Below, in pieces: positions 10,468-64,000 of a stretch of DNA of 64,000 nucleotides. Both the position numbers and the translations under genes were made by a program. The notes below the pieces were generated by a model. The model was given only the letters and a program-made list of their open reading frames with translations. It ran no database searches and was not told the origin of the DNA. Numbering within the stretch: the stretch's first letter is position 1; each line of letters begins with the position of its first letter. Source of the stretch: Rhodocollybia butyracea (lineage: Eukaryota; Basidiomycota; Agaricomycetes; Agaricales; Omphalotaceae); NCBI GenBank assembly GCA_015501585.1, contig JADNRY010000318.1:1-64000 (forward strand), read 5' to 3'.

Positions 10468-12379
10468 CAGAGGCCAAAGACGTGTATGCAGCAGAAACAT
10501 TACTTACCGCTGTAGGATCAATAACATTTTTCCTCTGCTTCCGCAAGTACCTCTTCACGCTCTTGCCCTTCCCCCGCATCTTCCTCTTCTCCCGTTCTTC
10601 CCTGTCGATCTTACCCTTACCATCCGCATTTTGCTCATCAGCGTCAGAAACAACCTCCTCCGTCACATCGGCTTTGCCCGACACCTGTAACCGTTCCGCA
10701 CGCGACAGACGACTGTAAGGGACTTCATTGGCGCGCGAGGAACCAGAACCACCTATGATTTAAATTTTTTTCAGTATGATATCGTACGGGTAAGAATTAC
10801 GAGTATGGATAAGTAGTCACCTGTGGTTGGGAGTTTCGTGGTCAGCTTTGAAGGCGGAGCCAAGGCTCCGACAAACTCTGGGTCAAGAGTGATCAGATCT
10901 GGTTGAACCTACGCGCCGGCAAAAAAAAAGAATCAGTAAGACAGCGACAACCAGCGATGTAACACCACGAACCTTGTCGAGCAAAGCTCGAACCTCCCTC
11001 TCCCTACGTCCCTTCACACCTTCATATAAGTCCAACCCCTCGCCGGTATCCATACCGCCTTCACCAGCTCCCGGAACAAGGATACTACTAGTTCCCTGTG
11101 CATGCCCGATAGCGAGAATATCCTGCAACGGCGCGAACCGCAGGGACGTGATCGGTCGATGCGATGCAGACGGCAGAGGATGGGTCATATACAGAGGCGG
11201 CTGCGACGGCGCGTTATGAACCGTTTTTATCGAGGGCGACGTATACATATTGACGCTGCCGCCGCTCGCAACAGCAAGCACGCCTTTCTGGCTCCACTCC
11301 ACTTCCGCATCTCCTTTGCCGCCGCTCCGCAGGCTCCATTCGCGCACGGCGCCTTTCCAGTTCCGACAGTCCCATACCTTAACGTGGCCGTCTTTTCCAG
11401 CGGTGGCCATGTACCGGCCGCCCTCGCTCGGGTCGACGGAAACACTCGCGACGGGCCCGAGGTGCGCGAGGACTTTGACAGCTGGATGCGGAAGATTCGG
11501 CGTCCACAGTGTGACACAGCCGTTCTGGTGTCCCAGATAAAGAACTGCGTTCTGCGGATTCTGTGCCAGGACTGAGCATGCGCCGAGCGCGGTACGATGC
11601 TCTGCGACGAGCTGGCCAGTAGACGTGTCTTGGTATTTCAGGTATCCGGCCGAGCCGACACTAGCAAGAAGCCAGTGATACGGTAAAAACTCCAGCCGTG
11701 TCGGACTAATGTGATCTTTAAGCTTGTGGATTTCAACGCCATCTCGATCGTAGATAAAAGTATATTTTTGCTGTGCGACGGCGTAGAATGAATGGTCCTG
11801 GAGAAAAACGATGTCCCTGCACGTTTCGCCTAGCTGCAGCTCGTTGTGTATAGCGCCTGTAAGGGTATCGAAAGAGGCAACATGGCCTGTTTTCCCTGCG
11901 ATGGCCATATGCCGTCCGTTCTTCGTGTATCGGATTCTGTAAGGCCCTCCATCGAGCTTCATTTCAACCCGCCCTCGCGCAGCCTCCGCTCCCGTCTCTC
12001 TACCAATTTCGCTCTGCGTGAGGCGCCATGTTCGTTCTAATGGGCCGTCAGTTTGTATAAACCCTGATTCCTCCGAAGGAAGCAAGTCTACTGCGTCCGA
12101 AAGCAGAGCTTGAGATTGGGCGATATGCGTTGCGGTTTTTACGAGAGAACGACGGAGGTTTTTGTTGGCGATGTGCTTATACGGTGAGGATTCTGTTGTT
12201 TCATTGGGCTGGGTTCGTAGAGATTTAGGAAGAGTCGTGTTTTTTACAATCGAGGCAGAGGTTTTGTCGGTTTTGACTGTTTTTGTGGAGGGCCCAGCTT
12301 TAGGTTGAGATGGCGCGGTCCTTTTTCGTTTTCCGGATAGTGGCTGGATCGCATCGGCTTTTGCTATGAGGGCGTCCAT
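10219..12379 (-). CDS. UTP7: U3 snoRNA-associated protein Utp7 (WDR46/BING4), SSU processome
   Basis: Four exons (10973..12379, 10821..10908, 10508..10752, 10219..10347) join in frame to 622 residues. The protein has a basic N-terminal region, a helical segment NLRRSLVKTATHIAQ, and a WD40 propeller (GRHMAIAGKTGHVASFD, ATAGKDGHVKVWD). It ends in the BING4CT region with LVPGAGE, LYEGVKGRREREVRALLDK and VQPDLITLDPEFVG, followed by a highly basic tail. These features identify Utp7, a nucleolar protein of the 90S pre-ribosome needed for 18S rRNA maturation. Length fits the human homologue. The frame is intact. The third intron contains a long AG/CT microsatellite. Confidence 0.95.
10433..10464. 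repeat. (AG)16 microsatellite in Utp7 intron 3
   Basis: Sixteen uninterrupted AG dinucleotides (CT on the coding strand), about 40 bp from the 5' splice site of the 160-bp intron 10348..10507. This intron is about three times longer than its neighbours. Confidence 0.95.
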
Positions 12380-14724: not shown

Positions 14725-16125
14725 TCAAGAACACGGCATGTCGCAGAGGATCAAGCACGTCTCATGAAAGTTGTCCCAGTCCCGCCATTCCTCAACGTCT
14801 AATCCAGTCATCAAATCATCCAAAAGCTTGGCAATCTCCTGTGCACTCCCTCTGATCTCGGGTTCATACTAGAAAATTTGCCACAGTATCTTATCAGCCT
14901 TATCTCTATCAGCCTTTGCTGCTTCATCCAAATCAGGAAAAAGTCCCTATGGCCCAGGCAACCATAGATTGGCCCAAGATGGCCTTAGTGGCACAATCCC
15001 CATGTCAGAAAGCCACTTTGCATTCTCGTCGCGCTCTGGCGCTTTCCAATGCTGGAATGGATTGTCTGGATCCATGAGTAACAGCCACTTTTCATGCCAT
15101 TGCAAAGGCAGTGGACCAACCCAGTAGATCATTTTTGCGACCTGCTTTCCTTTGAAGGGAAAGAAACCGCCAGTCAGAAGGAAAAATACGATGACACCCA
15201 TTGCCCAAATGTCCGATGCAGGACTGGCAGCATGATCAAATAGGATTTCAGGAGCGGCATAAGCGCTAGGACAACATGAATTGTGTATTTTGGAATGGTC
15301 AGGAGACCATAGAAAGGCTTTGCCGAAGTCAGTGATTTTGACTTGGAGAGAGCTATGATTGGAGAAGCAGTGGGCCAAAGCGAATCGGAATCAGGATCTC
15401 CGGCCAAGTATTGAGGGATATGAGGATCCAACGAGTCTAAAGGATTGAGAGCAGTATCGCAGGTTTGGAGTTTTATCTTCTTGAGCTTGCCAAGGTATCA
15501 TTTTACATCTTCTTGGGACGCCCACAAAGATATGGCGTCGGTACAAAGAAGAATGTTCTTTAGATAGAGATCTATGGAAATTGAGGATTGAGTCAGGATA
15601 TTTGTGAAGAAACCGACCTCCATGGACAACACAATGCTTATGCAAATACCTAAGACCACGAGAGATCTGAGCTGCTACATGTTTAGCGAATCTAGTTCGG
15701 ATAGACCCATTGAAATGTTCCTCGACTAGACAGTCATCTAGACCTAAACACGGACCTAGCACTTCTGTTACAATGCACTGATGCATCCCATTTGGACCGT
15801 GGTGCTTAAATTTGTCTAGCAGATAAACAACAAAGTCTTTATTCCCATTATCGATATCCAAATTACTCAACTGCTGTAGATGATGGAAAACAGCTATCTC
15901 CGAAGCTACCTTGGTTGATTCCAAGACGACAATCTTGAGAGCTGCGAAACGATCCGTGAGAGAGTCCTTGATGAGCCACATGGTGGAATATGAGCCATGT
16001 CCAAGCTTATACACAACAGTGTACCGGTTGTTGTGAAATGTATCACCAAGATGAACTGGATGAAATCCACCTGGTTGGTAGCGTTTGACATTCTCGACTT
16101 CAAAAAAACGGTCAGCGACGAACAT
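14725..16125 (-). pseudogene. SRPK-like protein kinase pseudogene
   Basis: Read on the minus strand, the first 190 residues are an intact kinase N-lobe: LGHGSYSTMWL (glycine loop), FAALKIV (ATP-binding Lys) and the catalytic loop split by an intron, VVHG|DLYLKNIL. Downstream VKITDFGKAFL (DFG) and YAAPEILF with DIWAMGVIVFFLLTGG follow, as in fungal SRPK-like kinases. The frame is broken by a TGA at 15498-15500, a frame change near 15370, a TAG at 14947-14949 and another TAG at 14869-14871. The original stop is at about 14725. Four independent lesions make this a pseudogene. A 45-bp fragment of a related kinase gene reappears at 60676-60720 beside a copia LTR. Confidence 0.85.
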
Positions 16126-16470: not shown

Positions 16471-17388
16471 TGCGGAGTTGCCTGTCAAGCTTCAAGGTAG
16501 AACTGGAAGTGTCGGTGCCATCTGTCGAGTTGCCACCTCTTCCAATGCCTCTTCCTGGTCATCTTCTTCCTCCCCAACCCACGAAAGTGGGAGTCGATAC
16601 CACATAAAAGTCTGTTCGAGTTTTGAATCCTTGTCAACGCCCATGACCTTTCGTGCCTGTTCTACTATGTCCTCTCTCGTCATTCCAGGGTGAGGAGGTG
16701 TGTTCCATACAGCTACCAGATAGAATTTGCCATTTTGCGCATATATGCCGCGTGGTGTGAGACTATAGATGATTAGTTTATATCATGATATATGATTTTT
16801 TTTAAAAGAAAAGGAGCGTACGCGTGAGGACCGTTCCAGCGAATCATTATTTCTTCGCTGTACCTGCCCCCAAGGGTGGTTTACGCCACCTAGATTACAA
16901 CTAAGCTGCTGTGGCGAACACACCCATCCAAGTCCATACAATGGAGTTTTTTTCCCATCAACTAAGGTGCCCCATAGCAATGGAGGATGGCGGGCACAGG
17001 GGAACCTGAAAAATCTGTTCAATTTAGTGTATTAGGCTGTTGAATTCTGGTGGCAGACTTTTCACCAGTGGAGGACATTTCAGTATTCACCTTGGTTGTA
17101 GTCATTGTGGTCGTAGACCCCTAACCCCTAACCCAATGATTTAAACAGGCAAGCTTGGTCATGGTCGCTCTCCGAGATCGGCAACGAGCGCCGCCTTTCG
17201 ACTTTTGAGTCCCCAGACGGTGTGGTGGACTTTGAGAGTAGGAGAGTTAGAGGTTCTGTGAGAACTGGATTGTTAGAGGAGATCATACTATGAGATGTAA
17301 TTCGTTAAGCAAATGCCATCGGCAAAATGTTAAGTATGTACTCTACTCGAAATGTTCAATAATTGGTTCAGTAATACAATCCCTCCTC
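16471..17388. other. remnants of unknown coding sequence; short telomere-like motif
   Basis: Minus-strand pieces read VAVWNTPPHPGMTREDIV continuing into an acidic Glu-rich segment (16492..16690), and, further upstream in the reading direction, LVDGKKTPLYGLGWVC (16783..17022). They are in different frames with stops between, so they look like a decayed gene that I do not recognise. At 17118-17134 the motif CCCCTAACCCCTAACCC resembles two and a half telomeric repeats. Nothing else is evident. Confidence 0.4.
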
Positions 17389-18697
17389 CTAGTATTCTAG
17401 CAAACGAGCACGGTTAAAGCGCCTTGTCGGATTTAATCCCGACGTCGTAGATGCCGGGCTCGCGAGAGAAGTGGAACTGGAATTTGCACTGGAAGTAGAG
17501 TTACTACCGTCGGTGCCGTTGGTCGATCCCGAAGCGCTGTTGCTGGAAGTGGAAGTAGAAAGTGGAGAGTTACCTGTCAATGTAGAACTGGAAGTTTCGG
17601 TGCCACTTGTCGTGTTGCTACTGGCAGTAAAAAGCGTGGAGTTGCCTGTCAAGGTAGAGCCGGAAGTTGTGCCATTTGTCGTGTTGCTACTGGAAGTACT
17701 ACCGATCAACGTAGAATTCCCTGTACCAGAATCGCATTGGTGCAATTGCAGTTATCGCCAGTCAAAGTGGTGTTATTCCCGCTGTTGCCCGAATCGCAGG
17801 AGCAATCACCTGTGGTCGTGGTATTCCCACTCGTGAAACAATTGCCACAAGAGTCGGTGGAATTTGTGTCTGAGCATGTATCACAAGAGCTAATCGTCGC
17901 GGTGGAATTCGTGTCGGTCGTTCCATCAGTAACGTTTGCCGTACTATTGGAGAGATTAACTCCCGAAGTTCCAGAGCATGAACAAGTGCTTATATCCGCA
18001 GTGGAACCATACGGACAAGTTCCATCTACACATCCGAGTCATTCAGTATTATATTCTCGTTCCAAAGAAAATATATTTTACTTGCGCCGAACGGTACCAC
18101 AGATCCATTCAAATTCGAGTAAAGCCCAGGAGATACACCCGAAGGTTGCGCATTGACAACCCCGTTCAACTCTGAATTCGCCGGAGAAGTGTGCAGTACA
18201 AGTTGGAAGGAACAACGCCCGTGATGGCTGCAGCTGCGTTTCGAGGAACCTGTCGGTATGCGACAGCATATGAGATCATACTGGCAGAGTTAGCAATACC
18301 AGAACTTTTGGCATAAAATATCATGTCGTCGGCGACATTCTGCTGCACGCAAGGGTCGGTTTTTGCGGAGAGGGCGTAGCCCCATCCTGACTGGCCTAGT
18401 CCGTAACAGACGTAGCTGGTGGCGACACTGACCCACTATCAGCGCATAGATTGCTCCAATCGCTGGCGTTGATGGAAGGCGCTGGGGAGATACGGGCGCC
18501 CCGGCGGTGGAGCAAGCAGAGGGAGGCAACACTTGACTTTGGGCATCGATTAGTGTAAGTTAAGCCAGTAGCAATACGAAGGACTAAGCCTACCTTTGCC
18601 TGGACGATATAGCCGAGGGGTGGACACCGCTCATTGGCATGGCTTCAACCATGTAGACGATGCCGAGAAGAAACAGAAGACGAGTGAAACTCTGCAT
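17389..18697 (-). pseudogene. secreted Ser/Thr/Asn-rich protein gene, frame-broken
   Basis: The start at 18697 begins MQSFTRLLFLLGIVYMVEA, a clear signal peptide. An intron (donor after ISSRQ) leads to a Cys-containing domain with VCYGLGQSGWGYALSAK, DPCVQQNVADDMIFYAK and AYRQVPRNAAAAITGVVPS. The C-terminal half is a low-complexity Ser/Thr/Asn tract (SNTTNGTTSGST-like repeats, Cys-Asn-Cys knots) typical of fungal cell-wall or GPI-anchored proteins. The pieces lie in three frames. At least three single-base shifts (near 18470, 18430 and 17750) separate them, besides a stop near 18166. It is either a young pseudogene or an indel-rich sequence stretch. A partial duplicate lies at 16229. Confidence 0.6.
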
Positions 18698-54093: not shown

Positions 54094-54296
54094 TGTTAGA
54101 GATTGACTTAGCGCCTTAACCCGAAAAGGGTTGATTACTTATTCAGGCGATTTATCATCCTGGTCCAGAGAGGAGCCCCTATCGACTCTCTCTCTGTACC
54201 AGGTATGTTGACTTATGATACATTATTCATTTGTACTACATATTAACTATCGACTCTCTCTCTGTACCAGAATTAAATCCTATTTTAACCTTGATA
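54094..54296 (+). repeat. copia 5' LTR
   Basis: Starts TGTTAGAGATTGAC. The same start is preceded by a polypurine tract in the inverted copy at 60854-60862, which confirms the LTR boundary. It contains two copies of CGACTCTCTCTCTGTACCAG (about 54183 and 54249). It ends just before the primer-binding site. Confidence 0.75.
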
Positions 54297-54368: not shown

Positions 54369-55436
54369 ATGAATGTCAAAGACAAAGACCAGGATATGGA
54401 TGATTCTACCAGAGAGAGGAATGAATGGAAACAATTCACCCTCACTCCTATAAAAGTTAACAGCGACGGCACAAACAACTACAGTGAGTTCAAACAAAAA
54501 TCTAGGTTTGAACTTATCGCAGCAGATTACTGGTGCCATATTGAAGGAGACGACTATGATCCTCCAAACATTCCTAAACTCATTCATTCGCAAATTGTCG
54601 ATGGAATAGACCAGAACAATGGATCTCAGCGTCGTATTGGTATTCATGGAAATGAAGCCATTGTCACTGCTGCAAAGAAAGCGGCAAAGCCTTGGTTAGA
54701 CAGGGACAGGAAGATCCTTGCCATCATAGCAAAAGCTATTCCTCTTGACAAAGGGCACATTGTGGGTGACTGTACATCTGCTCGAGATGCTTGGATGGCC
54801 TTGAAGAACGAATTTGAACCTAGTAACTCTGTCATAGCGACAAACATCAAGCACCAGATCATCGGGAATAGGTGTGCTGAAGACAATGATGTTGTCAACT
54901 GGCGGGAGATCATGGTCCAACTCTATAACAAACTCCGAGATGCTAATCCCAATATCATGTCCGATACTGAATTTGCCAGCCATCTCGTTACCCTGATGAC
55001 TACTGAACAGAAGTGGACAAATTGTCGTGATTTTCTCCTCAAGAAACTTAGGATTGGCGAGATTACTGGTCACCCCATCACTTCAAAATTTGTTATCCAG
55101 CACTTGAAGATTGAAGAAGTTAATCGAGGCATTTCTTCCTCTTTTGTTCAGATAAATACTATCGTGAATGGAAAGAAAAAGGCTAAACCTACCACATCCA
55201 CATCCAATGCTGCCATTCCTAGCGCCTATGCTACTGTTTCTGCCAGTGCTGTTCCCCTTGAGCAGCACATTGGACCGGGTCCTTCCAACCGAAAACAACA
55301 GCAAGACAGTCGGCGTCCCACACCTTATCACCCTAACCATGCCAACGTCGCTCAAGTCTCTTCTGCAATAACCCATATTGCGAGACACCTATCGGTCATC
55401 TCCAAAAGGGGGGAGGGTTGGCAGATATCCTTCTAA
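54369..55436 (+). CDS. copia Gag polyprotein part
   Basis: A 355-codon intact frame begins MNVKDKDQDMDDSTRERNEW. It contains the copia-type Gag (UBN2-like) region with YWCHIEGDD, KPWLDRDRKILAIIAKAIP, ARDAWMALKNEFEP, NIKHQIIGNR and FLLKKLRIGEITG. The C-terminal part is Ser/Thr/Pro-rich with no visible CCHC zinc knuckle before the stop at 55434-55436. Gag forms the virus-like particle of the element. The frame may originally have continued into pol; the sequence after the stop (GGEGWQISF then out-of-frame text) suggests a frameshift ended it early. Confidence 0.85.
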   Translation: MNVKDKDQDMDDSTRERNEWKQFTLTPIKVNSDGTNNYSEFKQKSRFELIAADYWCHIEGDDYDPPNIPKLIHSQIVDGIDQNNGSQRRIGIHGNEAIVTAAKKAAKPWLDRDRKILAIIAKAIPLDKGHIVGDCTSARDAWMALKNEFEPSNSVIATNIKHQIIGNRCAEDNDVVNWREIMVQLYNKLRDANPNIMSDTEFASHLVTLMTTEQKWTNCRDFLLKKLRIGEITGHPITSKFVIQHLKIEEVNRGISSSFVQINTIVNGKKKAKPTTSTSNAAIPSAYATVSASAVPLEQHIGPGPSNRKQQQDSRRPTPYHPNHANVAQVSSAITHIARHLSVISKRGEGWQISF

Positions 55437-57571
55437 TTATCATGGAAGGAGAGATGTACATTTATCTCCAGATGCCCGTATCTTGGAACATTGAAAGGAG
55501 TTAAAGGAAGACTCTTCTAACCGTTTCGTTGGTTCCGCCCAATTCTCCAATGACACTGATGATGAAGTTCACAATAATCTCGACCCCTTGGCTTACATGC
55601 TAGAATCTTTCCAGATAGCCGACGACAATGACAAAATCCATATTGATGAGGAGATTGTGGTCAATGTCATAGCCTTGAACAATGCCGTTGTCAGTGACAA
55701 CAGCGTCAACCACGACACTGGAGCTTCCTGACACATCTTTCATGAGTGTTCACTCTTCCATGATTATGTTCCTTTTAATCCACCACTCACTGTCTCGGGT
55801 TTTGGATCCAATTTGACAGCAGCAGCTGTTGGTAAAGGAAAAATTGTCCTCAATGCAACTCACAACAATTCTTCTCGTGTCTTCTCTCTTTCAAATGTCT
55901 TGCATATTCCTACTGCAAGATGCAATCTCATCTCTGGGTCAAGATTAGACAGAAAAGGTGTACGCACCACTACCAGAGACAACAACATTGTCTACTTCAC
56001 TTCCGCTGGTGAGGCTTTTGCTGGCGGAAGTATCTCCAATTAAACCGTCTCCAGATCACAACCCAACCTCCTCGCAATCAGATCTGATGGTATCTATGGT
56101 ACCATCAACTGCCGTGCTCTTCGGCCCAGGTACCGAGTCTGAAGAATTGAGGAAGGTGGGTTTTACCACCATCTAATGGGCCACATAGACGTTAAAGGCC
56201 TGAGGAGCGCGACAACTGGACTTCCTCCGGACGTCAACAGCATCAGAGTCGAGCACTGTCGAATCTGCGCCCTCGCCAACATTAAACGGCTGAAATTCCC
56301 AAAAAAAATCCTTCAACCGCGCTACTTGCCCTCTCTTCTGCATTCATTCCAACATCTGTGGCCCCTTTCCAGCTGGATACAGGGGTTTTTGCTACTTCAT
56401 CACCTTCATAGACAACTGTAGTCGTTTCATTGTTGTCTTCTTCTTAAAACAAAAATCTGAAGCTCTTAAATCATTTATTCTATTTTGCACTGCTGCCAAG
56501 AAACAACTTGGGTACAAAATTATCTTCCTGCATGTTGACAACACCAGCGAGCTTGTTGAGGGTCAATTCAAACAATACTGCGAAACTGAAGGAATTACCT
56601 ACAAAAAAACAGTCCTGGATGCTTCCCCACAGAACAGTGTTGCAGAATGAACAAACCAAATCTTAGAACGAATGTCGCAAGCTATGCTCATTGATTCACA
56701 GATGATGGCTTGGTTCTGGCCATTCACAACACAAACTAGTGCTCATATTAAAAACAGAGTACCTCACACCTCCTTATCCCATATCACACCTTTTCAAGGC
56801 TGGTTCAAAAAACAACCAGACCTCTCTCATCTTAGACCCTTTGGTGCTCTCGTAACTGCACGGAAGTCTAACTCAGATGAAATTGGAAAGATGGAACCTC
56901 GAGGGGAAGAAGGTTGATTTGTCGGATACGCAAAAGACCCCAAGGGTTACCTCATATGGTTTCCCACTTCAAAGTCAGTCTGACCTCGACGTGACATAGA
57001 CTTTCATGGCTTCCCGAGTCATCTACCATCTCCGCCTCTATCAGACATCCTCTGGGATGATCTGACTATAGACACTATCTCAAAACAAGTACGTGTTTCT
57101 TCAGTGGTTGATATACACAATGTTAACCTGTATCACAGGCTTTATCACGACACTGCTGCCTTGGATGATTTGTTCAAAAGCAATTGTTTTAATCTCAAGT
57201 GCATAGTTATCCATTACTAAGGGACTAATTCTAACCTGTTTACAGGCCGTCCCTGGACTCTAACACCTCTGATACGTCAATAACTGACCAAACTCACAAG
57301 TGTGTATTGATCCTAACTTTGAAACTTATGCCCTAACACCATCACAGTGCTGAAATTGAAATGTCTGATGGTACTACCCATGTCAAACCTCATCACAGTA
57401 CTCAACCAAGACATCTACCTGCTCAATACCATGTTGACCTCCTCACAGAATCCACCATCAAGGGGGGCACAACACTATCTTACTTGACCTCCTGAATTCT
57501 ACTCATGACAAAGAAATAGAAGTTGAGTGCACCACCGATGACCTCTCTCCATTGACAAAAGCGTTCATAGC
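55437..57571 (+). pseudogene. copia protease and integrase region (decayed)
   Basis: The protease motif NHDTGAS (D-T-G) lies near 55710 and is followed immediately by a TGA. VLHIPTARCNLISGSRLDR, the GAG-pre-integrase zinc motif (HxxMGHIDV...CRICALANIKRLKFPK, about 56170-56310) and integrase-core pieces (HVDNTSELVEGQFKQYC, VLDASPQNSVAE then TGA, LERMSQAMLI, PFGALVTARKS) follow in order. Frame changes and stops occur every few hundred bases. From 57240 to 57571 only scraps remain up to the solo LTR. Confidence 0.8.
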
Positions 57572-57764
57572 TGTTATGACCCAGATCTAAATCCTTTACA
57601 CCCAATCTTTTTTCTTCTGTAACCAACTATGAACACTATCATTAATACTTCTACTTAACATTTTACATTCATTAGTTATTCAACACCATTTGGGTTAATG
57701 CTGCACACATTCTTCCAGAACACCAGAATGATCTTTAACAGTCACTGCGCAGTCTGCACAGTCA

Positions 57765-58089
57765 TGACATCATTCTAGCTCCACAACTATGATGTCATCT
57801 TGCTACTCCACAATCATGATGTCATTCCATTGCTCCGCAGTTATGATATCACATCACTGCTCCACAGCTATGACATCATTGCATAGCCTCTTTACACCAA
57901 TGACTCAATATCAGTCATTGCACAGCCAGATATCTGAGTCAACTACGGTTCCGCATACATGACTCAATATTAGTCATTGCGCAGCATTACATAGTCAGAC
58001 TGACTCATCCGCAGTATTTCCGCAGTTATGACTCAAATCTAGTCATTCCGCAGCATTTCTTAACTAGTACACATTGCACAGTATATAAG
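57765..58089 (+). promoter_or_regulatory. LTR enhancer-promoter: CRE-like and AP-1/Gcn4-type sites with TATA box
   Basis: TGACATCAT or its complement occurs about four times (57765, 57790, 57817, 57871). The perfect Gcn4/AP-1 site TGACTCA/TGAGTCA occurs five times (57901, 57935, 57960, 58001, 58029), in degenerate tandem units with GCTCCACAG or CGCAGC linkers. TATATAAG follows at 58082-58089. Site clustering ahead of a TATA box is what a stress-responsive LTR promoter would look like. Binding by bZIP factors is inferred. Confidence 0.65.
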
Positions 58090-58189
58090 TAGTCTAGATT
58101 TACCAATGTACGTTACATGTATTATTTTTCTTAAATCCAAACCCCCACTTGTTTGCTGTTATCACTTGTGTGAATCACCAGACCAACTC

Positions 58190-58503
58190 ATTGTATCTTG
58201 TTGAGCTATCTCCAAGCTACAATACACATTTATACATCTTGTTGAGCTAACTCCAAGTTGTATCCACTAACATTCACCTGTTGAGCTATCTCCTAGTGAA
58301 TACTTCTTCAATTGCCACTTGTTGAGCTATCTCCGAGTTGCAACTTCCTATTACTTGTTGAGCTATCTCCGAGTATTAGACACCACACTCACTACTACTT
58401 GTTGAGCCATCTCCGAGTATTAGTTCTGATTCATATTACTGCTTGTTGAGCCATCTCTGAGGGTAATCTTATTATTATTTGTCGAGCTATCTCCAAATAA
58501 TAA
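58190..58503 (+). repeat. array of eight hairpins with a conserved loop and covarying stems
   Basis: Eight units each have the 12-nt segment TTGAGC(T/C)ATCTC (one A and one C variant) flanked by about 10-nt arms that pair with each other. Loop starts are about 58201, 58242, 58281, 58322, 58358, 58402, 58446 and 58482. Arms differ between units but stay complementary: ATTGTATCTTG/CAAGCTACAAT in unit 1, ATACATCTTG/CAAGTTGTAT in unit 2, ATTCAC/GTGAAT in unit 3, CTATTACTTG/CGAGTATTAG in unit 5, TTATTATTTG/CAAATAATAA (perfect) in unit 8. Spacers between units are short and unrelated. The array lies about 100 bp downstream of the LTR TATA box, so it would be transcribed. Confidence 0.85.
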
Positions 58504-58697
58504 CTTCTGTGAGTTTCGTATTACAAACTAGTTACTAACTTTACTTGAGCCTAGTTGTTTGAGTATATATTTTTTGCCTAGCGGTTTCATCAAACGGAAA
58601 GGCTTGCTCTATAATCTCCATTAATTTCTCTTATCATTGTTACCACCGAGTTACGTACTGTGAAGGTTTGGACGAGACTATTGATCGAGTCATAACA

Positions 58698-58870
58698 ATA
58701 GCTACTGAATCCACTTTTGTGGGAAGCACTTTGGAACATTCCATAGACGACATCCACGAAAAGGATCCTGAAACCATTGAACATGCAAAATCTTCCATAT
58801 ATTGGTCACACTGGTTGTCTGCCATCTATGAAGAGTTAGAGTCTCTTAATGCGAAAGGCATTATTAGGCC
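58698..58870 (+). pseudogene. copia reverse transcriptase, N-terminal start
   Basis: The frame reads ATESTFVGSTLEHSIDDIH, EKDPETIEHAKSSIYW and SHWLSAIYEELESLNAKG, the usual sequence before the catalytic part of copia RT. It stops matching at about 58861, where the composite insertion begins. The RT resumes at 62791, with about 30 residues missing. Confidence 0.8.
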
Positions 58871-60675: not shown

Positions 60676-60720
60676 TTGAGTCAGGATATTTGCGAAGAAA
60701 CTGACCTCCATGGACAAATG
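60676..60720 (-). pseudogene. 45-bp fragment of the SRPK-like kinase gene
   Basis: TGAGTCAGGATATTTG, then GAAGAAAC and GACCTCCATGGACAA, match 15590-15634 of the kinase pseudogene (exon end plus intron start around the VVHG|DLYLKN splice) with two or three differences. It directly abuts the truncated copia LTR. Confidence 0.8.
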
Positions 60721-61208
60721 AATAATGTATCATAAGTCAACATACCTGGTACAGAGAGAGAGTCAATAGGGGCTCCTCTCTGGACCAGGATGATAAATCA
60801 CCTGAATAAGTAATCAACCCTTTCGGGTTAAGGCGCTTAGTCAATCTCTAACACCCCCCCTTGACTAGTGTTGAGGCCAAGAAGTTTTACCCATTGTTTA
60901 TGCAGAGTCTGATGTAGTGGCTTGGTAAATATATCTGCGACATTTTCTTTGTTTGAAACGTACACAACATCAACAAGACGTTTGGGGATGCAATCTCGAA
61001 TGGAGATGTGCTTCATCTTGCTGTGAGCATGGGGGTCGTGAGTGCACGCGATTGTTCCTTGATTGTTGCAGAATATGGTTGTCAGTAGAGATTGAGGGAA
61101 TCCGAGTTTGGTGAATAAATTTCGGAACCATAGAATGTCTCTGGTGCAGTGTGTCATAGCTAGACATTCTGCTTCACATGAAGATAGAGCAATGACTGAT
61201 TGTTGTTT
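60718..61208 (-). mobile_element. inverted copia 3' end: truncated LTR, polypurine tract, RNase H
   Basis: On the minus strand, RNase H (SVIALSSCEAECLAMTHC, IFCNNQGTIACTHDPHAH, HISIRDCIPKRLVDVVYVSN, FTKPLHQTLHKQWVKLLG) leads to the polypurine tract AAGGGGGGG (60854-60862) and then the LTR start TGTTAGAGATTGAC at 60853. The LTR is cut off at about 60718. The rest of its RNase H lies at 62691-62790, beyond the nested LTR element. The coding part is almost identical to the plus-strand copy at 63670-64000. Confidence 0.88.
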
Positions 61209-62690
61209 TGTAACGCCTACGGCACGTTCATTGCCATTAGCGCCAATATTACATAATTAGTCTACTCTTATCCTCGTACCACATACTCGTTTCGGTCTAT
61301 TTCTCTAATAGAATGAGATCTTGCTCATGGTCTGAGGCATTAAGAGTCAGGGCTCTTACACTTTTTTGAGCAACCTTGTCCTGAATAGGACTATTACAGC
61401 AATATGACCACACAACAGCACAACTCAAGCCATGACTCTGTCATGGCTCTGGCTTACTCTTTTCTTTCTCAAATCCTTTCTATGTTCCCTCATGATCCTC
61501 TCTCACACATCTCTGGGATCCTGGACTTCTCCTCCCAGGGAATTCAACAGCTGCTAGTCAACTTTAAGCAGCTCTGGGAACATCATGGTCTTTCAGTGGC
61601 TGGTAGGAATTTGGCAGAGGCAGTGGTGCAGGATTCAACATTAAGATGTTGCTGGGCAGTGAAGGAAGAAGGTTTCCAGGCAGAGGTCTGTTTTCAGATG
61701 ATAGAGTCTATTAAGAGACTGGGAGAAGAGTTTGGGATGGAACTGTCCAAATCTCACACACCACCTCCTGCTCTGAGTTCTCCATCACCTTTGACCGCTC
61801 CTACTGCCTCATCACCAACTCCCACACTCGCTTCGAATGCGTCAGACACGTCGAAATCATCTCCACATGCTCTGACATTGGTTTCACCATCCAAACCCAC
61901 TCCCCCTTCACTTCAACTCCAACCAACCTCAGAGTTTGCACGGGAGGTGGCTGAACTGCGGAAAGCAGGCCGGAAACTCGAAGTATTCATGGATAAACAT
62001 GTCACGGGGCTTGAACACACAGCTGGAGCACCGCCAGCTCATGTTCATCTCTCAAACACTCCAACCGAGTGTACACCTGTGCCTTATGTTGCCCCTGTGA
62101 CTGCCGTTCCACCAACAGGCCTTCGTAAACGTGTCAAACACAACATGTATGGTGCGTTTGGTTCGCTCTTGCTTCGTTCAAGTTGTTGCCCATCCCAATC
62201 TTGTACACTCATGCCATCACCTTCACCCACTGAAACTCCCCATCACCATATTTGTGCTCCAATCAATGCTCCCATTCATGGCGCTGGAGATCTACTGTCT
62301 CCAATGTGCCACCACCATCTCAATCTGGACTTAGTGTCAGCATCCAGAGAATCCGGCGATTTTCACAGGACACTTTCTCTTCTTCTGCACTTATGGAAAT
62401 TGCCAGCGTACTACATCGTACGTTACCTATTAGATGACTGTATGTTTCTCTTTGTTATGTTTTCCCTTTTCCATCTTTCTCTTTTGTTTTTTTTTTTTTT
62501 GGGTAAGATGGACCTGTGGGGTCAATCTAGGGGGCATGTGTAACGCCTACGGCATGTTCATTGCCATTAGCGCCGATATTACATAATTAGTCTACTCTTC
62601 TCCTCGTACCACATACTTGTTTCGGTCTATTTCTCTAATAGAACGAGATCTTGCTCATGGTCTGAGGCATTAAGAGTCAGGGCTCTTACA
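61209..62690 (+). mobile_element. complete small LTR element (1482 bp) with its own ORF
   Basis: Two 152-bp LTRs (61209-61360 and 62539-62690; TGTAACGCC...GGGCTCTTACA) differ at about five positions. TGTTT at 61204-61208 and 62691-62695 is the 5-bp target duplication. The purine-rich AGGGGGCATG precedes the 3' LTR. The internal region encodes one ORF but no protease, RT or integrase, so the element must be mobilised in trans, like TRIM elements. It interrupts the RNase H gene of the inverted copia fragment. A solo LTR of the same family lies at 26862-27013. Confidence 0.92.
61404..62543 (+). CDS. ORF of the small LTR element (unknown, Gag-like position)
   Basis: A 379-codon frame starts MTTQQHNSSHDSVMALAYSF and fills nearly the whole internal region, ending 5 bp inside the 3' LTR. 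The first about 110 residues are predicted helical (FSSQGIQQLLVNFKQLWEHH, FQMIESIKRLGEEFGMEL). The middle is a long Pro/Ser/Thr-rich stretch, and a hydrophobic segment near the end (FVMFSLFHLSLLFFFFLG) derives partly from a T-run. I recognise no domain. Its position suggests a structural (Gag-like) protein, but that is inference. Confidence 0.6.
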   Translation: MTTQQHNSSHDSVMALAYSFLSQILSMFPHDPLSHISGILDFSSQGIQQLLVNFKQLWEHHGLSVAGRNLAEAVVQDSTLRCCWAVKEEGFQAEVCFQMIESIKRLGEEFGMELSKSHTPPPALSSPSPLTAPTASSPTPTLASNASDTSKSSPHALTLVSPSKPTPPSLQLQPTSEFAREVAELRKAGRKLEVFMDKHVTGLEHTAGAPPAHVHLSNTPTECTPVPYVAPVTAVPPTGLRKRVKHNMYGAFGSLLLRSSCCPSQSCTLMPSPSPTETPHHHICAPINAPIHGAGDLLSPMCHHHLNLDLVSASRESGDFHRTLSLLLHLWKLPAYYIVRYLLDDCMFLFVMFSLFHLSLLFFFFLGKMDLWGQSRGHV

Positions 62691-62790
62691 TGTTTGGAAC
62701 TCCATGAGATTGGGGAACCGTTCATAATGATAACAGATCCAGAAACTGATTTCCGTTCATTGCCCATTCCCCAATCTGAATCTGACAGCT
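62691..62790 (-). mobile_element. remaining part of the inverted copia RNase H fragment
   Basis: The minus strand reads SDSDWGMGNERKSVSGSVII and MNGSPISWSSKQ, continuing directly into the piece at 61208 once the nested LTR element is removed. At about 62790 it abuts plus-strand RT sequence head to head, a clean inversion breakpoint. Confidence 0.88.
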
Positions 62791-64000
62791 TGCCTCGTTG
62801 CCAAAGGCTTCACCCAAATACCGGGTCAAGACTTTAATCACACATTTGCTCCCGTTGCTCAATGGGAATCTATCAGAATGGTCCTCGCTCTTGTCGCAGA
62901 ACAAGACTGGGTTATGACAAATAGATGTTAAAACAGCTTATCTTAATGGTCCTCTGGATGAGGAAATCTACCTCCGCAAACCATCCATTGTTGGTTCTGG
63001 CTACTGGAGACTGAGAAAAGGCCTATACAGTTTGAAACAATCCAGTCATCAATGGTATCTTGAACTGCACAAGAAGTTAACATCTATTGGCTTCATTAGA
63101 ACTGAATCCGATTGGAGCATTTATTACCGAAACTGTGGAACTGACAAATCTGTCTTGGCTACTAGCTTTGACGATATGCTGATTGGATCGAACTCCACTA
63201 GAGAATCAGATTCAGTCATAGACGAGCTTGCCTCACTTTTTGATATCACTGACAACGGTGAACCCAACTTCCATCTCGGCTGCAGAATCATGTGCGACAG
63301 GGAAAACTGCACAATTCATCTTGACCAAAGCATGTACACTCAATCTATTCTTCAGGAATTCAACTTCAAAAACTGTAACTCAGTAGCAATGCCTATGGAT
63401 CCAGGCTGTTGCCTCTTCCCAGACACAAAAGAGCTCACTCCAGAGGAAACTGCTAAAGTTAACTCTTTCCCTTACACTGCCATCGTCGGAAAATCAATGT
63501 ATCTGTCCACTTGCTCTCATCCGGATATCTCATACACTGTCTGCGAGTTAGCATGTTTCATGTCCAATTACGGACTCTCACACATCACCGCTGCTAAACA
63601 TTTACTGCATCACCTCAAAGGCACTATTACATATGGTATCTGGCTTGGAAGAAAGAATCCTACTTATCCCCTCATTCGAGCACTGTCAGATTCAGATTGG
63701 GGAATGGGCAATGAACGGAAATCAGTTTCTGGATCTGTTATCATTATGAACGGTTCCCCAATCTCATGGAGTTCCAAACAACAATCAGTCATTGCTCTAT
63801 CTTCATGTGAAGCAGAATGTCTAGCTATGACACACTGCACCAGAGACGTTCTATGGTTCCGAAATTTATTCACCAAACTCGGATTCCCTCAATCTCTACT
63901 GACAACCATATTCTGCAACAATCAAGGAACAATCGCGTGCACTCACGACCCCCATGCTCACAGCAAGATGAAGCACATCTCCATTCGAGATTGCATCCCC
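62791..64000 (+). pseudogene. copia reverse transcriptase and RNase H (partial)
   Basis: Starting at LVAKGFTQIPGQDFNHTFAP the frame continues VAQWESIRMVLALVAEQDW. It shifts by one base at about 62922, then reads DVKTAYLNGPLDEEIYLRKP, GLYSLKQSSHQWY and SFDDMLIGSNS, where other copia elements have YVDD. IVGKSMYLSTCSHPDISY and the RNase H region DSDWGMGNERKSVSGS to HISIRDCIP follow. The second frame stays open to the window end. Apart from the early shift and the altered YVDD motif it is well preserved. Confidence 0.85.

Follow-up and report, generated by a model that had tools for sequence, protein, structure and literature searches.

A tandem array of hairpins with a nearly fixed loop in the predicted 5' leader of a Ty3-type LTR retrotransposon of Rhodocollybia butyracea

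The stretch of Rhodocollybia butyracea DNA analyzed here (the window) comprises 64,000 nucleotides of contig C626 in a 95.6-Mb genome assembly, and all array copies discussed below come from this one genome. The window contains a BING4/Utp7-like host ORF on the minus strand (10886-12379), whose product matches a Rhodocollybia butyracea protein at 98% identity over 80% of its length, and a solo long terminal repeat (LTR) of 1126 bp, upstream of which lies the Copia-type gag (Retrotran_gag_2) of an older element (54369-55436 and downstream). The Copia-type remnant and the solo LTR lie together between inverted repeats at 54094-54270 and 60714-60853 (110 nt at 98% plus neighbours), which are spaced about 6.5 kb apart. 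Inside the solo LTR, positions 58190-58503 form eight tandem hairpin units that share a 12-nt core and carry arms that pair within each unit. The features of the LTR are as follows.

57567-57571, + strand: target-site duplication ATAGC, left copy
57572-58697, + strand: solo LTR (TGTTATGAC...GTCATAACA), 1126 bp, recognized by its ends and flanks, with identical ends in element loci
57765-58035, + strand: U3 repeats with TGACTCA/TGAGTCA and TGACATCA/TGATGTCA sites, upstream of the TATA box
58082-58088, + strand: TATA box TATATAA (70 cases lying 52-56 nt before the leader motif among 72 distinct leaders)
58120-58697, + strand: predicted AUG-free transcribed leader, its start placed after the last upstream ATGs at 58106 and 58117
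58137-58158, + strand: conserved leader motif CCAAACCCCCACTTGTTTGCTG, used for counting LTR leaders
58191-58222, + strand: hairpin unit 1, core 58201-58212, by pairing and folding
58232-58263, + strand: hairpin unit 2, core 58242-58253 (TTGAGCTAACTC), by pairing and folding
58271-58302, + strand: hairpin unit 3, core 58281-58292, by pairing and folding
58312-58343, + strand: hairpin unit 4, core 58322-58333, with one stem pair that is G-C, G-U or A-U between copies
58348-58379, + strand: hairpin unit 5, core 58358-58369, by pairing and folding
58392-58423, + strand: hairpin unit 6, core 58402-58413, by pairing and folding
58435-58467, + strand: hairpin unit 7, bulged and weakest, core 58446-58457, mean pair probability 0.13
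58472-58503, + strand: hairpin unit 8, perfect 10-bp stem, core 58482-58493 (TCGAGCTATCTC), by pairing and folding
58698-58702, + strand: target-site duplication ATAGC, right copy

The U3 repeats are tandem 27-bp units bearing TGACTCA/TGAGTCA and TGACATCA/TGATGTCA palindromes, which we take to resemble bZIP (Gcn4/CREB-like) sites; placed upstream of the TATA box, they are likely an enhancer.

A preliminary description of this DNA reported eight units with an invariant loop. The eight units are present, while strict invariance did not hold: the core TTGAGCYATCTC is exact in six of the eight, unit 2 reading TTGAGCTAACTC and unit 8 TCGAGCTATCTC. The array itself was confirmed. The arms pair within each unit, with units 1-6 and 8 paired, when counted ungapped, at 7-10 of the 11 loop-proximal arm positions; unit 8 is indeed perfect, being paired at all of its first 10 arm positions; and the array lies about 100 bp past the TATA box, its first stem following the TATATAA at 58082 by 109 bp. 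Ungapped, unit 7 has 6 of its 11 arm positions paired, and its stem requires a bulge.

We permuted the arms among the units, folding the 12-nt arms of units i and j around a fixed core, and found that the real pairing was the best of 40,320 arrangements (1/40,320), with a summed folding energy of −67.5 kcal/mol versus a permutation mean of −39.8 kcal/mol. By ungapped pair count, 12 of the 40,320 arm permutations reached the real arrangement. The energy permutation gave the same rank on the antisense strand, and thus it cannot tell the strand, nor RNA from DNA. The fold of the whole array had a z-score of −2.26 in the sense direction, with none of 100 shuffles as good, and of −1.51 in the antisense direction (6/100). 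When the 573-nt leader was folded, seven of the eight stems had mean pair probabilities of 0.84-0.96, as opposed to 0.13 for unit 7. Within the loop, the inner GAG/CTC helix takes either of two registers on folding, of which unit 2 fits one and the TTAAGCTATTTC variant the other.

Divergence between paralogous units was assessed in an alignment of 22 units with 13 pairs, made up of all eight window units, 7 of the 10 units in one LTR of an element on contig C1 (L031) and 7 units of L039. In this alignment 86.0% of cells were paired versus 77.3% in shuffled alignments, 28 cells carried double changes versus 9.8, and the covariation score was 0.310 versus 0.166, values that none of 500 shuffles reached. 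The number of pairs with a double change was hardly above the shuffles (7 versus 4.6, 25/500 reaching it), and the number of further pair types was not above them (16 versus 15.0, 175/500). Structures slid along the alignment were paired in 35.0-50.3% of cells.

The array recurs throughout the genome. The exact core TTGAGCYATCTC has 1,203 + 1,015 = 2,218 matches, compared with 3 + 7 = 10 for a reversed-pattern control, and the leader motif CCAAACCCCCACTTGTTTGCTG, allowing up to 3 mismatches, occurs at 185 + 157 = 342 places (control 2 + 0), so that about 342 LTR leaders hold on average about 6.5 exact cores each. Cores substituted at position 8, the three other letters pooled, gave 115 matches versus 107 for the control and 2,218 for the intact core. 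Two isolated exact-core matches were read (L032 and L040), and neither had pairing arms by eye. The number of detected units per array was 5-12 in 84 of 85 arrays, a pattern-based count that degenerate units may escape; the array of L098 is truncated after two units and does not enter the ATG and column-variation counts described below.

Unit number changes in recognizable ways. Most of the extra units repeat the unit 5/6 type at a length of 44 bp, and one subfamily has a degenerate unit 7. Hybrid units combine the 5' arm of a unit with the 3' arm of the unit that follows, joined inside the core, and have weaker stems (1|2 in 22 units, 4|5 in 12, and three other mixed units besides). Both the hybrids and the extra units fit an origin in unequal recombination, or in template jumps, between identical cores. 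That every stem should be needed is not supported, given the 34 hybrid units of the 1|2 and 4|5 types: such weak-stem units are common and show single hairpins to be dispensable, and one or two poor hairpins are evidently tolerated in an array.

Changes between copies were counted by column in 74 distinct arrays with at least 4 units, drawn from 95, after dropping 31 units unlike any type (indel variants among them). Because the copies share descent, these counts do not represent independent events, and the sampled arrays lean to the window's own subfamily and to that of L039. Any variant was seen in 29 of 126 stem columns, 31 of 70 unpaired flank columns and 22 of 84 core columns (stem versus flank p=0.0034, core versus flank p=0.026). 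In the unit-8 type, no paired stem column varied among 68 units, although some indel variants are among the dropped or hybrid rows. Stem changes present in at least 2 arrays kept pairing in 10 of 13 cases, where base changes in the unpaired columns give an expectation of 0.274 (p=3e-4). Stem changes seen once kept it in 7 of 19 (p=0.44), and are neutral, as expected for the neutral decay of dead copies. Shared and rare changes differed at p=0.036; counting once two changes that recur in units 4, 5 and 7 left 6 of 9 shared changes keeping pairing (p=0.016) and made the difference between shared and rare changes no longer significant (p=0.23). The preliminary description would have been undercut by arm changes in homologous LTRs breaking pairing as often as they keep it, which the shared changes do not do (10 keep, 3 break) and the once-seen changes do (7 keep, 12 break). 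Scored by consensus partner, sense pairing was kept in 9 of 13 shared stem changes and antisense pairing in 6 of 13, with 3 in both, a weak strand signal.

Individual stems provide examples. One pair in unit 4 runs through G-C, G-U and A-U, with A-U in three copies of an otherwise G-U subfamily, and unit 7 of one copy shows a double change from T-A to A-T. Taken alone, unit 4 did not exceed its shuffles (113/500 reaching it) in what is a small set. Paired stem changes are strong between units and modest between copies. Together, the arm permutation, the covariation between paralogous units and the shared stem changes favor selection for structure over plain tandem duplication, as the preliminary description had argued, and we consider it very probable that the array is a selected RNA structure.

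By the features tested, the element that bears the array is a Ty3-type (Metaviridae) LTR retrotransposon. An 11.6-kb element at C481:9324-20958, with the duplication GGCAG on both sides, has a match to RT_RNaseH_2 (15786-16085) followed by one to Integrase_H2C2, a zinc finger (16500-16670), both within a single 963-aa open frame between the LTRs. Each of its LTRs carries nine hairpin units, and the leader stretches read (569 and 494 nt) contain zero ATG; its arrays are part of none of the array counts given here. Its internal part starts nearly as that of L031 does. In L031 the two LTRs show no difference over 1252 bp, the duplication ACAGG flanks the element, and a purine tract precedes the 3' LTR. 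The internal part encodes gag-like ORFs (PF03732 at E 1.5e-6), the frame being split over two overlapping ORFs; inspection of the translation by eye places a CCHC knuckle at the end of the second. We did not find an RT or integrase domain in the ORFs of L031 that were scanned. With RT and integrase in Ty3 order in the C481 element and only gag in L031, one leader type serves both, and arrays are present in shorter gag-bearing elements as well as in the 11.6-kb one.

Further copies were read in part. LTR pairs on C1038, C488 and C750, where the element ends were read, have matching 5-bp flanks and a gag-like start inside, and the pair on C1360 has no matching flanks at the ends read. On these four contigs and on C477, the 1.4 kb before the 3' LTR holds no sense-strand frame of 100 aa, and judged from their ends, with the middles unread, these pairs may also lack pol. 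Solo LTRs whose flanks were read have 5-bp duplications in 9 of 9 cases (L059, L062, L063, L064, L067, L071, L073, L075 and L076). A protein search with the L031 gag-like ORF returned 8 proteins, six from Dendrothele bispora, one from Paramarasmius palmivorus and one unnamed, and a search with the L058 ORF found nothing.

The distribution of start codons bears on the strand of the array. Counting in the 66 of 85 arrays in which both leader ends were found by pattern, with identical copies kept, we observed 15 ATG in the 38,981 nt from the leader motif to the LTR end, 52 of the 66 leaders having none at all, compared with 694 CAT; the sequence upstream of the motif had 727 ATG in 28,874 nt. Within the array segments of the 74 distinct arrays there were 7 ATG versus 459 CAT in 24,869 nt. 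ATGs remain frequent in the bases leading up to the motif (over 72 leaders, 74 lie between −40 and −21 and 24 between −20 and −1), a distribution that probably puts the cap near the motif, some 35-55 nt past TATATAA. Past the motif, the first ATG comes 586-680 nt on, at or beside the gag start, in all 6 elements examined: in four it stands at the gag-start place (in one of these, L066, without a following 100-aa frame), and in L051 and L052 it is in another frame and precedes the gag start by 4 nt.

A leader that is nearly ATG-free, yet not CAT-free, until gag begins argues that the sense strand is the array's strand. Such a pattern is predicted by a scanned sense-strand 5' leader and not by a DNA-only, antisense or intronic array, and in this respect the sense-strand AUG depletion agrees with the transcribed LTR leader proposed earlier. 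A role in transcription termination, also proposed earlier, is unlikely, as the depletion runs through the array and beyond it to the gag start. Directly past the array, at 58522-58552, TACTAAC is followed by CCTAG, a pair that resembles the branch-point and 3' splice-site consensus of fungi; we rejected an intronic array, for the depletion spans the array itself. The linkers between hairpins are poor in G, as expected for unstructured spacers, with 1.6% G in 4,647 nt across the 74 arrays and G at 1 of 57 linker positions in the window (p=8e-4 versus the rest of the leader).

We compared the array with known RNA elements. Rfam gave 0 matches in the window and a single leader match far below the gathering score (E 0.29), and a pattern scan of IMG/VR returned 16 stretches with one match each and no array. 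The earlier remark that no element of such build has been described is in keeping with this, as none was found in Rfam or in the open-licence literature searched (weak evidence of absence), where an architecture of arrayed identical-loop hairpins was not found for LTR retrotransposons.

The selection of their own RNA by fungal LTR retrotransposons is known mainly from yeast Ty elements. Ty3 NC has one CCHC finger and is required for RNA packaging, and the portion of that account available to us does not describe a tandem identical-loop array in the Ty1 or Ty3 leader (PMC4974528). For the elements described here we favor, with a probability of roughly 40%, a multivalent array of RNA hairpins in a scanned 5' leader, whose loop is read by Gag and which acts as a packaging signal or translation switch. 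From the features above we infer a transcription start, a recognized loop, Gag as its partner and a packaging or switch function, arranged as follows. The sense transcript would begin shortly past the TATA box, and ribosomes would reach the gag start by scanning about 600-700 nt of AUG-poor leader. On the way, 5-12 short hairpins on G-poor linkers would each display nearly the same loop, with the stem sequence mattering mainly for pairing and the loop sequence serving as the recognition site for a partner. The most likely reader would be the Gag protein of the element itself, with its CCHC zinc knuckle; a tandem arrangement would increase avidity and mark the element RNA for particle assembly, and accumulating Gag could switch that RNA from translation to packaging. 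Several results weigh against this reading: weak-stem hybrids have spread, unit 7 folds badly, the sense preference of shared stem changes is slight, the energy permutation ranks alike on the antisense strand, two of five covariation measures hardly or do not exceed their shuffles, as is true of unit 4 taken alone, and collapsing recurrent changes removes the significance of the contrast between shared and rare ones.

Gag is our leading guess for the partner, with a host RNA-binding protein next. The RT-less L031 keeps its gag-like ORFs and leader and has identical LTRs, which suggests Gag first, as do two groups of known viral RNAs. The packaging stem-loops of STNV and MS2 are spread over the genome, unlike a tandem leader array. 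These viruses likewise use several coat-protein-binding stem-loops at multiple sites, AXXA being the favored loop motif in STNV, and assembly with coat protein is more efficient for RNAs that carry several preferred stem-loops; there the coat protein is the known partner, whereas Gag is a candidate here (PMC3593212). The type-C leaders of MuLV and RD-114 likewise carry hairpins with a shared conserved loop in a retroelement 5' leader (SL-C and SL-D, with a GACG tetraloop) that act in RNA dimerization, a process tied to packaging; they differ in having two hairpins instead of 5-12, another loop, and loop-loop contacts in the RNA dimer (PMC5874298). We offer a broader proposal more tentatively: a tandem, self-expanding array of 5-12 identical-loop hairpins per leader could act through modular avidity, as a packaging signal or as a translation switch; its unit number would be tunable and evolving, and it would let RT-less gag-bearing elements be mobilized by an RT-coding relative. 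With hundreds of array copies, several sites in each, a near-fixed loop and interchangeable stems, the question of RNA selection would be testable by counting or mutating sites, and the array could supply a new RNA-protein tethering pair.

The same RNA hairpin array might instead be read by a host RNA-binding protein acting in export, stability, translation or localization, either hijacked by the element or restraining it. All the structural evidence fits such a protein equally, and many copies of one loop would suit an RNA-binding protein of modest affinity; we nevertheless find it somewhat doubtful, because no host regulon is seen: the 2,218 cores, counting exact ones only, are about what 342 LTRs supply, and the isolated matches in L032 and L040 lack pairing arms by eye.

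A second alternative moves the function to DNA, with the cores as an array of protein sites that forms an enhancer or insulator within the leader and hairpins that are incidental. The insulator of the Drosophila gypsy element, a set of DNA sites for the Su(Hw) protein located in the 5' untranslated region, is the relevant precedent, and we know of no paired arms at its Su(Hw) sites. It too is a clustered protein site, with 12 copies, of retroelement origin, and a tandem 12-bp core near a retroelement 5' end resembles that cluster (PMC9917439). Sirevirus LTRs of plants similarly hold many copies of a palindromic motif, likened to sites for DNA-binding factors; they differ in lying upstream of the TATA box and in having a CGG-CCG core that is itself palindromic (PMC2829016). 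Strong core conservation and a pairing test that is just as strong on the antisense strand would also fit DNA sites. However, such sites need no arms of about 10 nt that differ between units and yet pair, and the constrained stem columns, the shared changes that favor pairing (G-U included) and the G-poor linkers also count against them, leaving a DNA-level function improbable.

It is likewise improbable, in our view, that the array is principally a platform for loop-loop (kissing) dimerization or strand transfer, in which identical loops and repeats in R would aid RNA dimers or template jumps. The commoner loop does contain the self-complementary AGCU, unit number varies, and the hybrids join neighbours inside the core as template jumps would. 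Against this, the loop has AGCC, which is not self-complementary, in 105 of 533 same-type units, and the best matches to the complement of the loop or core in L031's own RNA were at the shuffled level. A search within the window for a tRNA that could pair with the loop found none.

Least probable of all is a functionless by-product of tandem duplication and hairpin correction by template switching, which would account for the unstable unit number, the hybrids and the neutrality of once-seen changes but not for unit-specific mismatches that persist between copies rather than being corrected, and which leaves the AUG-poor leader, the G-poor linkers, the core conservation and the lower stem variability unexplained.

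The window contains other repeats as well. Positions 60984-64000 form a repeat structure of two inverted repeats, 225 and 98 nt long and both at 100%, together with a 157-nt direct repeat at 96%. At 17550-17698 there is a tandem repeat with a 72-bp unit and about two copies, which has no relation to the hairpin array.
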